Under the pieces are notes generated by a model. That model saw only the letters and a list, made by a program, of their open reading frames with translations, made no database searches and was not told where the DNA came from. Of a DNA stretch of 64,000 nt, positions 103 to 5,090 are shown in pieces (within the stretch, counting starts at the first letter, position 1; each line of letters begins with the position of its first letter). This DNA is from Candidatus Marinarcus aquaticus. Lineage in GTDB: Bacteria > Campylobacterota > Campylobacteria > Campylobacterales > Arcobacteraceae. Position numbers and translations under genes: made by a program. The stretch lies in NCBI RefSeq assembly GCF_004116335.1, contig NZ_PDKN01000002.1, positions 186,001 to 250,000 of the forward strand. Reading direction: 5' to 3'.

Positions 103-933
103 GTGAATATAGGAATTATTGGATTGGGTTTAATGGGAGGATCGATTGCTAAAGCAGTAAAAAAATACTCCATTGCAAAAAATGTATACGGTTACGTGAG
201 CAGAGAATCAACTAAAAAAGAGGTTTTAGAATTAGGTTTGGTTGATGAAATAATGGATTTAGATGCATTAAAAGAGCAATCGGATGTGATTATTTTGGCC
301 ATTCCAGTTGATGCAATCATTGAGATGTTCCCACAATTTTTAGATATATCAAAAAATACAACCATCATTGATTTGGGTTCAACCAAAGAGTTTATTATTG
401 AAAATGTACCAGAGAGTATCAGGGAGCAGTTTATTGCAGCACACCCTATGACTGGAACAGAAAAATCTGGACCAAAAGCAGCAATTGATGAGTTGTATGA
501 AGGTAAAACGGTTGTTTTATGTAATTTAGAAAAGAATGAAAACATACATGTCAATAAAGCTTTTAGGATTTTTCAAGGCATTGGTATGCGTATTGTGGTT
601 ATGGATGCAAAAGACCATGATATTCATGCGTGTTATATGTCACATCTGCCTCATGCCATCTCTTTTTCATTAGCCAATACGGTCATGGGACATGAAGATC
701 CAAAATCAATCATTGCCTTAGCTGCGGGTGGTTTTAAAGATATGAGTCGTATTGCTAAATCAAGCCCCGATATGTGGACCGATATTTTCAAACAAAACAA
801 AAAAAACTTACTCAGTTCCATTGAAGTGTTTGAAAAACAGATGCAAATGGTGAAAACAATGGTTGAAAATGATGATTATGAGCAATTAAAAAAGTGGATG
901 ATAAAGGCAAATTCTCTACACGAAATACTCTAA
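103..933 (+). CDS. tyrA: Prephenate dehydrogenase
   Basis: This enzyme oxidatively decarboxylates prephenate to 4-hydroxyphenylpyruvate in tyrosine biosynthesis, in the cytoplasm. The N-terminus has a Rossmann dinucleotide motif (GLGLMGGS, residues 7-14). The middle carries the family sequence AAHPMTGTEKSG and a later HLPHAISF segment, both typical of TyrA. The length of 276 residues fits a monofunctional enzyme with neither a chorismate mutase nor an ACT domain. The start is GTG, with AAAGG six bases upstream. The next gene follows after 14 bp, so the two may be cotranscribed, although no functional link is obvious. Confidence 0.93.
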   Translation: MNIGIIGLGLMGGSIAKAVKKYSIAKNVYGYVSRESTKKEVLELGLVDEIMDLDALKEQSDVIILAIPVDAIIEMFPQFLDISKNTTIIDLGSTKEFIIENVPESIREQFIAAHPMTGTEKSGPKAAIDELYEGKTVVLCNLEKNENIHVNKAFRIFQGIGMRIVVMDAKDHDIHACYMSHLPHAISFSLANTVMGHEDPKSIIALAAGGFKDMSRIAKSSPDMWTDIFKQNKKNLLSSIEVFEKQMQMVKTMVENDDYEQLKKWMIKANSLHEIL

Positions 934-947
934 CCAAAGGATAGGAC

Positions 948-2003
948 ATGCGTTATCTCATATTGATTTTTTTTTGTGTACTTCAGCTGAGTGCTAATGC
1001 GTATTGGACCATTGATGAATATGTTGAAAAAAATCCTGAACAAAAGTATTACATGCAACATTTCAATAAAATGGTTCAAGGTAACGCAGTTCCTTTAACA
1101 CAAACACACAAAAAAGTTAAAATTGCCTTGTTGTATCCGGGTAATCAAATTACAGATTATTGGAAACGAAGTCAAACCTCGTTTGAAGCACGTTTACAAG
1201 AGTTACATGTGAATTATGAAGTTATTCCTGTTTTTGTAGATGAGAATGATGTGAAAACAATGCAACAAAAATTGAAAGAGCTATTGGCTTTAAAGAGTGA
1301 TTATCTGGTTTTTACACTCAATATTGATGGGCATAAAAAACTCATTTCACAACTTATTACCAATAAAAAACCAAAACTGATTTTGCAAAATATTACGACA
1401 CCATTGAAACAATGGGGTGATACGCAACCTTTTATGTATGTTGGATTTGACCATGTAGAGGGTACAAAATTGTTAGCTAAGTATTATGCAAAAACACTTC
1501 CTAAACATTCTAATTATTTGATGTTGTATCATAACGAAGGGTACATCTCTCAGATGCGAGGCGACAGTTTTATTCATATTTTTAAAGATGATTACACTCT
1601 TAAAGGTGCTTATTACACTTATGTGAAGAAAGAGTTGGCAAAACGAATAGTCAAAGAGTATTCAGGACTTGATAACATAAGTTTTATTTACAACTGTTCA
1701 ACGGACATTGCTGTGGGTGCGAGTGAAGCTTTAGAAGAATTGGGCATGAAAGAAAAAATCATGATCAATGGTTGGGGTGGTGGAAGCTTAGAGCTTCAGA
1801 TGATTCAAGAAGGAAAACTTGACGTTACGGCGATGCGAATGAATGATGACAATGGTGTAGCTATGGCTGAAGCAATTAAGCTTGATATTATGAACAAAAG
1901 CGTTCCTACCATTTATTCAGGGCAGTTTGAGTTGGTGGATAAAAACAGTACCAAAGAGGAAATAGAATCATTCAAACAGCGAGCATTTAGGTACAGTCAT
2001 TGA
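948..2003 (+). CDS. luxP: LuxP-like periplasmic AI-2 binding protein
   Basis: This is a periplasmic binding protein with an N-terminal signal peptide (residues 1-18, ending SANA). It matches Vibrio LuxP, as I remember that sequence, along its whole length. Shared blocks include LILQNITTP, YVGFDH, CSTD, INGWGGGS and a C-terminal KRAFRYS. The positions that bind AI-2 in LuxP can be lined up here as Q67, T69 (Ser in LuxP), W72, N148, R204, T252, D253, W276 and R297. That makes a furanosyl borate diester or related AI-2 ligand plausible. Its stop codon overlaps the start of a LuxQ-like sensor kinase, so the pair probably works as a receptor complex. No ABC permease is nearby, which argues against a simple sugar importer. 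The assignment rests on remembered homology. Confidence 0.8.
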   Translation: MRYLILIFFCVLQLSANAYWTIDEYVEKNPEQKYYMQHFNKMVQGNAVPLTQTHKKVKIALLYPGNQITDYWKRSQTSFEARLQELHVNYEVIPVFVDENDVKTMQQKLKELLALKSDYLVFTLNIDGHKKLISQLITNKKPKLILQNITTPLKQWGDTQPFMYVGFDHVEGTKLLAKYYAKTLPKHSNYLMLYHNEGYISQMRGDSFIHIFKDDYTLKGAYYTYVKKELAKRIVKEYSGLDNISFIYNCSTDIAVGASEALEELGMKEKIMINGWGGGSLELQMIQEGKLDVTAMRMNDDNGVAMAEAIKLDIMNKSVPTIYSGQFELVDKNSTKEEIESFKQRAFRYSH

Positions 2004-3949
2004 AAAATCTTAAAATAAGTATTAAAACACTTTTTGTATTTTTAACACTTTTTACGGTCTCAATTATCATACTATTGACATATACGTTTTCAAAACGGGG
2101 GCTTAATGAACTTTTTATCAGTGAGTCAAAAAAGTATTTTGAACAAAGTATTCGCCTTTCTCAAACCATATTTGATTACGAAATTGAAAAAATACTTTCG
2201 GTTGTTAACTCCATTTTTTTATCTGCAAATGAACTGCAAGCGATAAAAGAGGGCAACACAGAGTTTTTAGAAAATCAACTTAATAAATCAATTGTAAAAT
2301 CATTAGATTTTATGGCTGTCATTCCTTCAAAAAAAGATGACATTGCATTGGCTGGATTTTTTTTATATGACATCACTCCTTTGGTTCATGAACTTAAACG
2401 TGTTAAAACCTCTTCCTCTAAAAAGCATTTGATTAAAGTAAAAAGCAATGATCAGACATTGGTTTTTATTGTCATTACTAAAGGAATTGTTGATCCTAAA
2501 ACAGGTGAAGTTATTGGTCTGTTTGCAGGTGGAGTTGAACTAAAAAACAACCTCAAGCTTTTAAATGATATTAAAAAAAATACCAAATTAGAAAAAATCA
2601 TGTTGTTGTATAATGATGATTTGATTTTAGAAGATAATGAGTATGGTAATGGCTTCGCTTCCATTGAACGTTTTGGAGCAATTGAACATTTCGCTGATGA
2701 CATGGATAAATTGGGATATAGAGCTGCTTTATATTTTGATGAACAAGAGAGTAGATTGAATATCAAAATGATTTTACAAAATGATGCATTAGAAAGCATC
2801 AAAAGAATCATCAAACGAGATTTACTGATCATCTCTATTTTTACACTTCTTGTGGTTATGTTATTTATTTATTTAATTAATCAACTGTTGATACGACCTA
2901 TTGAGAGTCTGAAAATCTATGCCAAAGAGTTTTTTGAAAACAGTAACAGTGAACAAAAGGAACTCTCACTGAAAATTGTAGAGTATCAAGAACTTGCAAA
3001 CTATTTAAAGAAACTATTTAAAGAGCTGTATAACAATCAACAAAAGCTTTTAAAAGCTAAAGAGAAGATGAGTAAAGATTATAAACTCATTCAAGAACTC
3101 AACGATAATTTAGAGATGAAAGTTGCCCAAAAAACGCGTGAATTGCAAGATTTAAATGAAAACTTGACACAAAAAGTGGGATTGGAAGTAGAGAATAACC
3201 GTAAAAAAGATCAACAAATGATGCAACAAGCACGTTATGCCGCATTAGGTGAAATGATTGCCAATATTGCTCACCAATGGCGACAGCCCTTGTGTGCCAT
3301 CACTGCAGCAATCAGTGCGATTAAACTGCAAAAAGATTTGAAAATGCTTAATGATGAAACGTTTGAATACTATTATAACATGATGCTTAATAATACTGAT
3401 TTTTTATCTGAAACCATCAATACGTTTAGAAGTTTCTTTAAAAATGATTTAGAAAAAAAACCCTTTAACCTGGTCAAATCAATGGAAGACACACTTATGA
3501 TTATCTCTTCTACATTTAAAGACAACAATATTGAAATTGTTACGGATTTTAATCAAAGAGATTTGATGGTTTTAGGAAGCAGTACGGAGCTTTCACAAGT
3601 ATTTATAAATATACTTAATAATGCAAAAGATGTGATGCTGGATAAAAAAGACCAAGAGCGAAAAGTTTTCATACGTTCAATGCAAATAGAGGATGAAAAC
3701 ATCATTTTTATCATAGATAATGGGGGTGGAATCCCTGAAGAGATCATTCAAAAAGTATTTGACCCATATTTTACAACCAAACATCAAAGTCAAGGTACGG
3801 GAATAGGTTTATATATGAGCAAAGAGATTGTTGAAAGAAAGTTTAATGGTCTTTTAAGTGTACAAAATACGCACTTTAAACATGGAACACAAACATTTAT
3901 GGGAGCATGTTTTCGAATTGCTTTGCCTGTTATAAAAGAGAAAGCGTAA
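2000..3949 (+). CDS. LuxQ-like membrane sensor histidine kinase
   Basis: This is an inner-membrane sensor kinase of 649 residues. It has a TM segment at about 10-28, a periplasmic domain to about 265, a second TM at about 273-293, a coiled coil at about 340-400 and a kinase core. The phosphoacceptor is H425 in IAHQWRQPL. The N box (NILNNAKD), the G1 box (DNGGGIPEE) and the G2 box (GTGIGLYMS) follow. The periplasmic stretch VDPKTGEVIGLFAGGVELKNN resembles the LuxQ sensor domain (DPSTGEVLG...DNN). The start is TTG and overlaps the luxP stop by 4 bp. Unlike Vibrio LuxQ there is no receiver domain and no response regulator nearby, so its output partner must be encoded elsewhere. Confidence 0.8.
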   Translation: MKNLKISIKTLFVFLTLFTVSIIILLTYTFSKRGLNELFISESKKYFEQSIRLSQTIFDYEIEKILSVVNSIFLSANELQAIKEGNTEFLENQLNKSIVKSLDFMAVIPSKKDDIALAGFFLYDITPLVHELKRVKTSSSKKHLIKVKSNDQTLVFIVITKGIVDPKTGEVIGLFAGGVELKNNLKLLNDIKKNTKLEKIMLLYNDDLILEDNEYGNGFASIERFGAIEHFADDMDKLGYRAALYFDEQESRLNIKMILQNDALESIKRIIKRDLLIISIFTLLVVMLFIYLINQLLIRPIESLKIYAKEFFENSNSEQKELSLKIVEYQELANYLKKLFKELYNNQQKLLKAKEKMSKDYKLIQELNDNLEMKVAQKTRELQDLNENLTQKVGLEVENNRKKDQQMMQQARYAALGEMIANIAHQWRQPLCAITAAISAIKLQKDLKMLNDETFEYYYNMMLNNTDFLSETINTFRSFFKNDLEKKPFNLVKSMEDTLMIISSTFKDNNIEIVTDFNQRDLMVLGSSTELSQVFINILNNAKDVMLDKKDQERKVFIRSMQIEDENIIFIIDNGGGIPEEIIQKVFDPYFTTKHQSQGTGIGLYMSKEIVERKFNGLLSVQNTHFKHGTQTFMGACFRIALPVIKEKA

Positions 3950-3950
3950 A

Positions 3951-5090
3951 TCAAAGATTACTTTGAATCGCCTCTTGTACTTTTATGGCTTGATGGTGCT
4001 CTTTAACGTCATGACAACGCACAATAGAAGCCCCGTTTTTAATCGCCTCTAAATGAATGGCAAGTGTCCCTGGAAGACGTTCAGAAATGTCTGAAGGTAC
4101 AATCTTATCAATCATCGATTTTCTGCTTGCACCAATTAAGAGTTCGTATCCAAAATATCTGAAGTGTTCATGATTCTTTAGAAGTTTCAGGTTGTGTTCG
4201 AGCGTTTTACCGAATCCAATACCTACATCTAAAATAATCTTTTTTACACCAAATGAGTGCGCTTTTTCGATTCGTTCTTGGAAAAAGTCATGCACTTCAC
4301 TGATAACGTCTTCGTAGTGTGGATCATCTTGCATGTTTCTTGGGTCATTTTGCATGTGCATGATCACAACTGTGGCATCATATTGTGCAGCTACTTTTGC
4401 CACTTCATTGTTGGCTAAACCAGTAATATCATTGATGATACTGAACCCACAATCCATGGCATATTTTAAAACATCTGGTGCATAAGAATCTAAAGAAAAA
4501 GTGGCCTTTTCATAGAGTTTTTCTATTTTAATCGTATCTAAAATAGGTTTGATTCGAGAAAGTTCTTCTTGAGCACTGACTGCAACACTACCGGGCCTAC
4601 TTGAAACAGCCCCTAAATCAATGATTTGGGCACCATCATGGATAAGCTTTTCCATACGTTTAACTGCATTTGATCCATTGAAACGACTATCTTTAAAAAA
4701 AGAGTCTTCGTTGGCATTGATAATACCCATAATTTTTGTGGGTGCTTGTTTTGTAAAAAGAAACGATTTTAACTCTTTAGCAATGGCCTTTAATCCAAAA
4801 GGTTGGGCTCTCTCTTTGACACTTAATACTTCAAGCTGTTTGCTATTGGCAATTAAAATAGCATCTACATAAGGCTCTCGTGCAACAATCACCCCCATAG
4901 GAACAGCTAAGTCTGCACCAATTGAGAGCGCATCTTGTTTTAAAATGTTTGCAGCTCCCACATGAAGGTTTTTGATATAAATGGTATGAACATCACATTT
5001 TTTAGCCAAGATTTTGGTTCCGGGCTTATCGCAACCCAGTTTTTCAAAAGCTTTGTTTACTTCATGCAAAGAGAGTTTGTACAGATTCAT
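3951..5090 (-). CDS. folP: Dihydropteroate synthase
   Basis: The enzyme condenses 6-hydroxymethyl-dihydropterin pyrophosphate with p-aminobenzoate in folate synthesis; it is the target of sulfonamides. The TIM-barrel domain starts near residue 121 with MGIINANEDSF, a variant of the usual MGILNvTPDSF motif. It continues with IDLGAVSSRPG, DVGIGFGKT and GASRKSMI, all pterin- or phosphate-binding segments. The first 120 residues are the N-terminal extension seen in Campylobacter and Helicobacter FolP. The gene is the last of rppH-lysC-hobA-holB-folP and follows holB by 2 bp. It ends 1 bp from the convergent sensor kinase. Confidence 0.93.
   Translation of the reverse strand: MNLYKLSLHEVNKAFEKLGCDKPGTKILAKKCDVHTIYIKNLHVGAANILKQDALSIGADLAVPMGVIVAREPYVDAILIANSKQLEVLSVKERAQPFGLKAIAKELKSFLFTKQAPTKIMGIINANEDSFFKDSRFNGSNAVKRMEKLIHDGAQIIDLGAVSSRPGSVAVSAQEELSRIKPILDTIKIEKLYEKATFSLDSYAPDVLKYAMDCGFSIINDITGLANNEVAKVAAQYDATVVIMHMQNDPRNMQDDPHYEDVISEVHDFFQERIEKAHSFGVKKIILDVGIGFGKTLEHNLKLLKNHEHFRYFGYELLIGASRKSMIDKIVPSDISERLPGTLAIHLEAIKNGASIVRCHDVKEHHQAIKVQEAIQSNL

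Follow-up and report, generated by a model that had tools for sequence, protein, structure and literature searches.

A candidate LuxPQ-type AI-2 receptor with a probably rewired output in Campylobacterota

TorT/TorS and NspS/MbaA place a membrane kinase (TorS) or a membrane cyclase/diesterase (MbaA) under the control of a periplasmic binding protein; the ligands of these systems are TMAO and polyamines, and both systems fall outside the LuxP branch. Closest to the locus described here is LuxP/LuxQ of Vibrio (PDB 1JX6, 1ZHH and 2HJ9), in which AI-2-loaded LuxP, seated on the periplasmic domain of LuxQ, changes the balance between kinase and phosphatase activity (PMC524169, PMC7584622). LuxP was reported to be confined to Vibrio in 2004 (PMC524169), a view restated in 2020 (PMC7584622) and 2025 (PMC12503165). 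In 2008, Rezzonico and Duffy described LuxP-like proteins in Oceanospirillales, Desulfuromonas and Desulfovibrio, from genomes in which luxS was reported absent; these proteins were reciprocal best hits outside Vibrio, several of them encoded beside genes for PAS-containing regulators (PMC2561040). According to the accessible portion of a 2025 survey, 267 LuxP proteins, mainly from Proteobacteria, were found by annotation keyword, and three sensory domains, one of them from Deferribacterota, bound AI-2 (PMC12268683). That portion of the survey contains no Campylobacterota LuxP and no analysis of LuxQ, and none of the exceptions to a Vibrio-only LuxP given there or in the 2008 survey comes from Campylobacterota.

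The sensor domain of LuxQ has been treated separately. A 2016 survey of Cache domains, as far as its available text goes, counted LuxQ-periplasm in 115 proteins, 112 of them kinases and one a c-di-GMP enzyme (PMC4822843); this is the same sensor domain as in the locus below, and the available text connects it neither with LuxP genes nor with Campylobacterota. Most bacteria that respond to AI-2 have no known receptor (PMC7584622, PMC12503165), and luxS mutants of Arcobacter butzleri show biofilm phenotypes (PMC9324650). luxS is common in Campylobacterota. In the open-access papers searched, no LuxP is named from this phylum, and a search for LuxP with Arcobacter returned none of relevance; annotated genomes from these genera may already use the name.

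The pair reported here lies in a window of 64,000 nucleotides from Candidatus Marinarcus aquaticus (Arcobacteraceae, Campylobacterota), which is the whole stretch of DNA that was analysed (contig NZ_PDKN01000002.1, positions 186,001 to 250,000). A luxP-like gene and a gene for a LuxQ-like histidine kinase, both on the forward strand, overlap by 4 bases (TTGA). The features of the locus, in window positions, are as follows.

103..933, + strand: prephenate dehydrogenase gene (NF006307, 410 bits; cut-off 295)
948..2003, + strand: luxP-like gene, periplasmic binding protein of 351 aa, ATG start (Peripla_BP_4, 75.5 bits; PDB LuxP, E 1e-105)
948..1001, + strand: predicted signal peptide, about residues 1–18, with a hydrophobic segment at residues 4–22 (hydropathy scan)
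1146..1838, + strand: AI-2 contact residues Q67, T69, W72, N148, R204, T252, D253, W276 and R297 (alignment to Vibrio LuxP)
2000..3949, + strand: LuxQ-like membrane histidine kinase of 649 aa, TTG start (open reading frame and domain matches)
2021..2077, + strand: first membrane helix of the kinase, residues 8–26 (hydropathy)
2123..2626, + strand: LuxQ-periplasm domain, PF09308, residues 42–209 (35.9 bits; cut-off 25.7)
2822..2878, + strand: second membrane helix, residues 275–293 (hydropathy)
3245..3448, + strand: HisKA dimerisation and phosphoacceptor part (PF00512, 24.8 bits, just below the cut-off of 26.9)
3581..3928, + strand: HATPase_c (PF02518, 65.2 bits)
3951..5090, − strand: folP-like gene, convergent, named by eye from its sequence

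The kinase gene starts with TTG in the window and with ATG at the equivalent place in a relative of the same genus, 'Epsilonproteobacteria bacterium UBA4036' (L014), the one locus returned by a single-protein search of genome contigs. The prephenate dehydrogenase gene ends 14 bases before luxP and is probably transcribed together with it; the order of this gene and of the convergent folP-like gene around the pair is the same in L014. No response regulator gene adjoins the pair, the nearest lying 44.7 kb from the kinase gene. Scanning the region for promoters and terminators produced no more matches than shuffled sequence did, and the base composition of the luxP region is close to that of the adjoining genes.

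Sequence comparison confirms the binding protein as a LuxP orthologue. It matches LuxP chains in the PDB over residues 16–350 (phmmer, four distinct LuxP sequences), whereas the solved relatives that come after LuxP are sugar-binding proteins with E values of 1e-9 or weaker. Its orthology to Vibrio LuxP extends over the full length, at 49% identity to the Vibrio campbellii protein, and it is 45–68% identical to 16 members from its own family, with the highest value for L014. The first 18 or so residues are probably a signal peptide, with a cleavage site guessed by eye between SANA and YW.

For the ligand pocket we used nine contacts, including D267 and W289, which we take to be AI-2 contacts from the work on 1JX6. 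With the numbering anchored on Q77, all nine land on the expected letters in Vibrio harveyi LuxP. Eight are identical in the window protein, where Q67, W72, N148, R204, T252, D253, W276 and R297 correspond to Vibrio Q77, W82, N159, R215, T266, D267, W289 and R310; the ninth, Vibrio Ser79, is Thr69, an exchange that we accepted as keeping the pocket. The set contains all seven residues that hydrogen-bond AI-2 in 1JX6 (Ser79, Arg310, Arg215, Thr266, Asn159, Trp82 and Gln77; PMC9687752). Across 19 LuxP sequences (17 from Campylobacterota that are not linked to a cyclase and 2 from Vibrio), eight of the nine contacts are invariant, whereas the alignment as a whole has 70 invariant columns out of 338 (hypergeometric p = 1.8e-5), and this invariance beyond the column background supports the same ligand without amounting to proof. 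The pocket signature is not wholly specific, because six or seven of the nine contacts are also present in distant alphaproteobacterial relatives (28% identical, encoded in ABC sugar operons), with D267 and mostly N159 lacking. AlphaFold2 models of LuxP and the kinase, built from two sequences only, reached a pLDDT of 42 each, and no structural claim is drawn from them. Separately, a LuxP-like protein from a Roseicitreum antarcticum plasmid (L074:1-9119; 28% identical, seven of nine contacts) is encoded in the same operon region as an ABC transporter and lsrK, annotated as an autoinducer-2 kinase gene, where it takes the place of LsrB.

The kinase shares with Vibrio LuxQ the adjacency to luxP, a LuxQ-periplasm domain between two membrane helices, and HisKA and HATPase_c domains, to which the AI-2 pocket of the partner protein can be added. 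The LuxQ-periplasm match, although above the cut-off, is low in absolute terms (35.9 bits versus 318 for Vibrio), and LuxQ periplasmic chains from the PDB match weakly (E 2e-4 to 3e-3). Besides the periplasmic domain and the kinase core, the protein contains a coiled stretch. Its putative phosphoacceptor is H425 (3272–3274) of the motif HQWRQPL, and all four ATPase boxes, N, G1, F and G2, are intact (NILNNAKD, DNGGG, FDPYFTTK and GTGIGL). In usual HisKA kinases the residue after the phospho-His is Glu or Asp; here it is Gln, and the switch therefore need not work as in Vibrio. A Pfam scan found no Response_reg domain in the window kinase, whereas the same scan gave 84.6 bits for V. campbellii LuxQ, so that the protein is not a hybrid kinase with a C-terminal receiver. 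Since the receiver is lacking, we call the kinase LuxQ-like and not LuxQ; against the NCBIfam model LuxQ_Vibrio (NF041947) it scores 87.9 bits, far from the cut-off of 1200. It is also shorter (649 versus 860 aa), and its HQWRQPL-type core is akin to those of resident kinases and unlike that of Vibrio LuxQ.

Most of this had been anticipated in the original prediction. Both reading frames, 948–2003 and 2000–3949, lie in the span that it gave (948–3949); the AI-2 contacts that it listed from Q67 to R297, with Thr for Ser at one site, were borne out by the alignment with Vibrio LuxP; and the LuxQ-like periplasmic segment and the absence of a receiver that it described were recovered by the domain scans. 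Its HWRQPL-type core calls for one small correction, in that the motif is HQWRQPL, with Gln next to the His.

The same genome carries luxS (G000:C3:83969-84424, 193.6 bits), as do 102 of the 104 genomes of the family. No LuxU-like single-domain Hpt protein was found in the genome, a further difference from Vibrio; the sole Hpt domain sits in a 713-aa CheA-like kinase. The genome lists 58 receiver domains; 18 response regulators are more than 4 kb from any kinase, and 30 kinases, that of the window among them, are likewise more than 4 kb from any regulator. A partner regulator was sought by position, and no receiver-bearing neighbour recurs at other LuxP loci; the kinase of the genome that is nearest in relatedness to the window kinase is likewise unlinked to a regulator. 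The same-genome kinase with the closest core (L105:6735-9566, minus strand of G000:C5) has as its direct neighbour the gene of a periplasmic binding protein of the ModA/phosphonate type and may be another binding-protein-coupled kinase.

We propose, with a probability of roughly 0.7, that the pair is a LuxPQ-type AI-2 receptor with a rewired output that leads directly to an unlinked response regulator. Judging from its sequence features, the pair is likely to sense AI-2. Secreted LuxP would bind AI-2 in the periplasm, most likely in the borated form as in Vibrio LuxP, and would rest against the periplasmic domain of the LuxQ-like kinase in the membrane; binding of the ligand would then shift the kinase/phosphatase balance of the cytoplasmic HQWRQPL kinase, and phosphate would pass straight from H425 to a separate, unlinked response regulator instead of through the LuxQ–LuxU–LuxO relay of Vibrio. 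Direct transfer from H425 is the simplest route because no receiver is attached and the sole Hpt domain lies in a CheA-like protein. Here we infer AI-2 binding, complex formation, the direction of the switch and the identity of the regulator. The original prediction had arrived at a similar interpretation, and each part of it that sequence could test agrees: LuxP orthology with the pocket, the LuxQ-like periplasmic part, the missing receiver, and the luxS gene and unlinked response regulators for which it had suggested searching the genome. It had also placed the DNA in an Arcobacter-like, AI-2-making group, which fits a luxS-bearing family of Campylobacterota.

LuxP is found in 19 of the 104 genomes of the family, in 8 of its 20 genera, and in a class sample of 397 genomes it occurs in two further families of the order, where it is rare (1/44 and 1/175). 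All 15 family genomes with LuxQ-periplasm also have LuxP, as do all 7 class-sample genomes with the domain above cut-off, and a LuxQ-like sensor gene directly follows LuxP wherever the contig continues, with one exception. Among the LuxP genomes in which LuxQ-periplasm was not detected, the LuxP gene of three lies at the end of a contig or close to it; the others are L025 and G456 (L076). An intact LuxP gene occupies the usual chromosomal site in L025 (7715-8818), where the sensor gene is missing and the next gene adjoins on the other strand; no LuxQ-periplasm was found elsewhere in this genome, which is 74% complete. In G456 the sensor is present, with a periplasmic part that scores below the Pfam cut-off. 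Another locus, L069:6000-6798 (G103:C27), has synteny as in L016 and a LuxP gene broken by stops and frame changes at a contig end, the result of decay or of poor assembly.

Fourteen loci share one chromosomal site, flanked on one side by genes resembling those for hydroxymethylbilane synthase and isochorismatase and on the other by genes resembling those for PrpF and aconitase (assigned by eye from sequence). The site in the window genus differs from this one, and that of L016 adjoins secDF. Among the LuxP-linked sensors of relatives that were scanned, none has a receiver domain. At the shared site the sensors are 703–721 aa long, with the periplasmic part followed by PAS and then kinase; the output is PAS plus kinase in L076 and a kinase without PAS in the window genus. 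In L016:4491-6431 (−) and L075:6139-7992 (−), LuxP is followed by a LuxQ-periplasm–PAS–GGDEF protein with its GGEEF and RxxD inhibition motifs intact, and the LuxP proteins carry Q77E and S265A. These pairs are possible direct switches from AI-2, or a related signal, to c-di-GMP. The one c-di-GMP enzyme among the LuxQ-periplasm proteins counted in the Cache survey (PMC4822843) is a partial precedent for the cyclase fusion.

In the LuxP tree, L075, L016, L076 and then the window with L014 form one clade of five (98/96). The tree of the sensor halves contains the same clade (100/100), again with the window and L014 innermost and with the order of L016 and L076 swapped. The kinase cores behave differently: those of the window and L014 group with L078, a kinase of the window's own genome with an unrelated sensor (98/96), away from the other LuxPQ-linked kinases. 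From this grouping with a resident kinase, set against trees of LuxP and of the sensor half that are in broad agreement, we conclude that the output was replaced. The two input parts move as a unit, with at least one replacement of the output by a resident kinase and at least one exchange between kinase and cyclase. The best tree separates the two cyclase-linked members, holding them together is not rejected (p-AU 0.113), and one or two cyclase exchanges are both possible. Two findings go beyond the original prediction: the pair is no isolated oddity, being present in 19 of the 104 family genomes with no receiver in any relative's sensor, and its output domain varies, with diguanylate cyclases in two genomes.

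Outside Vibrio, the receptor seems to serve as a plug-in module. More tentatively, and at slightly less than even odds, LuxP and the LuxQ periplasmic domain may form an exchangeable AI-2 input cassette in Campylobacterota, inherited as a pair while the cytoplasmic output is swapped; this would yield AI-2-controlled kinases and, in at least two species, a diguanylate cyclase under AI-2 control, through which AI-2 would act on c-di-GMP directly, with no phosphorelay in between.

Other readings of the window pair have to be weighed. The LuxP homologue could detect another furanose-like ligand, such as a pentose or a host or algal metabolite, which would make the pair a sensor of nutrients or niche instead of a receptor for quorum sensing. 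LuxP does belong to the sugar-binding Peripla_BP_4 family, its alphaproteobacterial relatives, in which the pocket is similar in part, are encoded in operons for sugar uptake, the exchanges in the cyclase-linked members show that the pocket drifts within the family, and 85 of the 104 genomes of this luxS-bearing family manage without LuxP. We nevertheless consider this reading unlikely, given that the nine contacts, with one Ser/Thr exchange, are kept in members 41–49% identical to Vibrio LuxP, as a conserved ligand predicts, and that luxS is present in the same genome. It is less probable still, and we would give it little weight, that LuxP binds AI-2 but reports the AI-2 of other species or a metabolic by-product instead of the cell's own density, with a general stress or lifestyle kinase branch as output; the patchiness of LuxP against near-universal luxS would fit, and the differing genomic places and exchanged outputs suggest no fixed regulon, while nothing speaks directly against it except that the genome has its own LuxS. 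Finally, although LuxP is best known from Vibrio and is patchy in this phylum, a recent capture from Vibrio, or assembly contamination, without function in the host is highly improbable, and recent transfer was rejected as contradicted by identity (most members are only 44–49% identical to Vibrio LuxP), tree (the Campylobacterota sequences split from Vibrio at 100/100) and synteny (kept with the genus relative at 68% identity), with intact kinase motifs and a base composition near that of the adjoining genes.

The LuxPQ kind of receptor is itself known; new here, as far as the papers searched go, is a LuxP orthologue with a LuxQ-like kinase without a receiver in Campylobacterota. Unlike the earlier cases outside Vibrio (PMC2561040), the genome that contains the window belongs to another phylum and has luxS and a recognised LuxQ-periplasm domain. 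If the pair is a LuxPQ-type receptor that binds AI-2, a luxS-bearing group gains a concrete candidate receptor, and deleting it would tell the signalling effects of luxS apart from the metabolic ones. That outputs have been exchanged in nature on a single input pair illustrates how sensors coupled to a binding protein are rewired.

Two LuxP loci lie in unusual surroundings. In G456, the LuxP pair has as neighbours a repeat array and Cas9-, Cas1- and Cas2-like proteins, recognised by eye (L076:10796-15419), which as far as seen is a coincidence of place. In Vibrio fluvialis, luxP and luxQ are found on plasmid pIDH5335-3 (L073), an 83-kb record typed as a mobilizable plasmid, beside an annotated conjugal transfer protein, TraF; luxPQ would be mobile if this record is not a chromosomal fragment.
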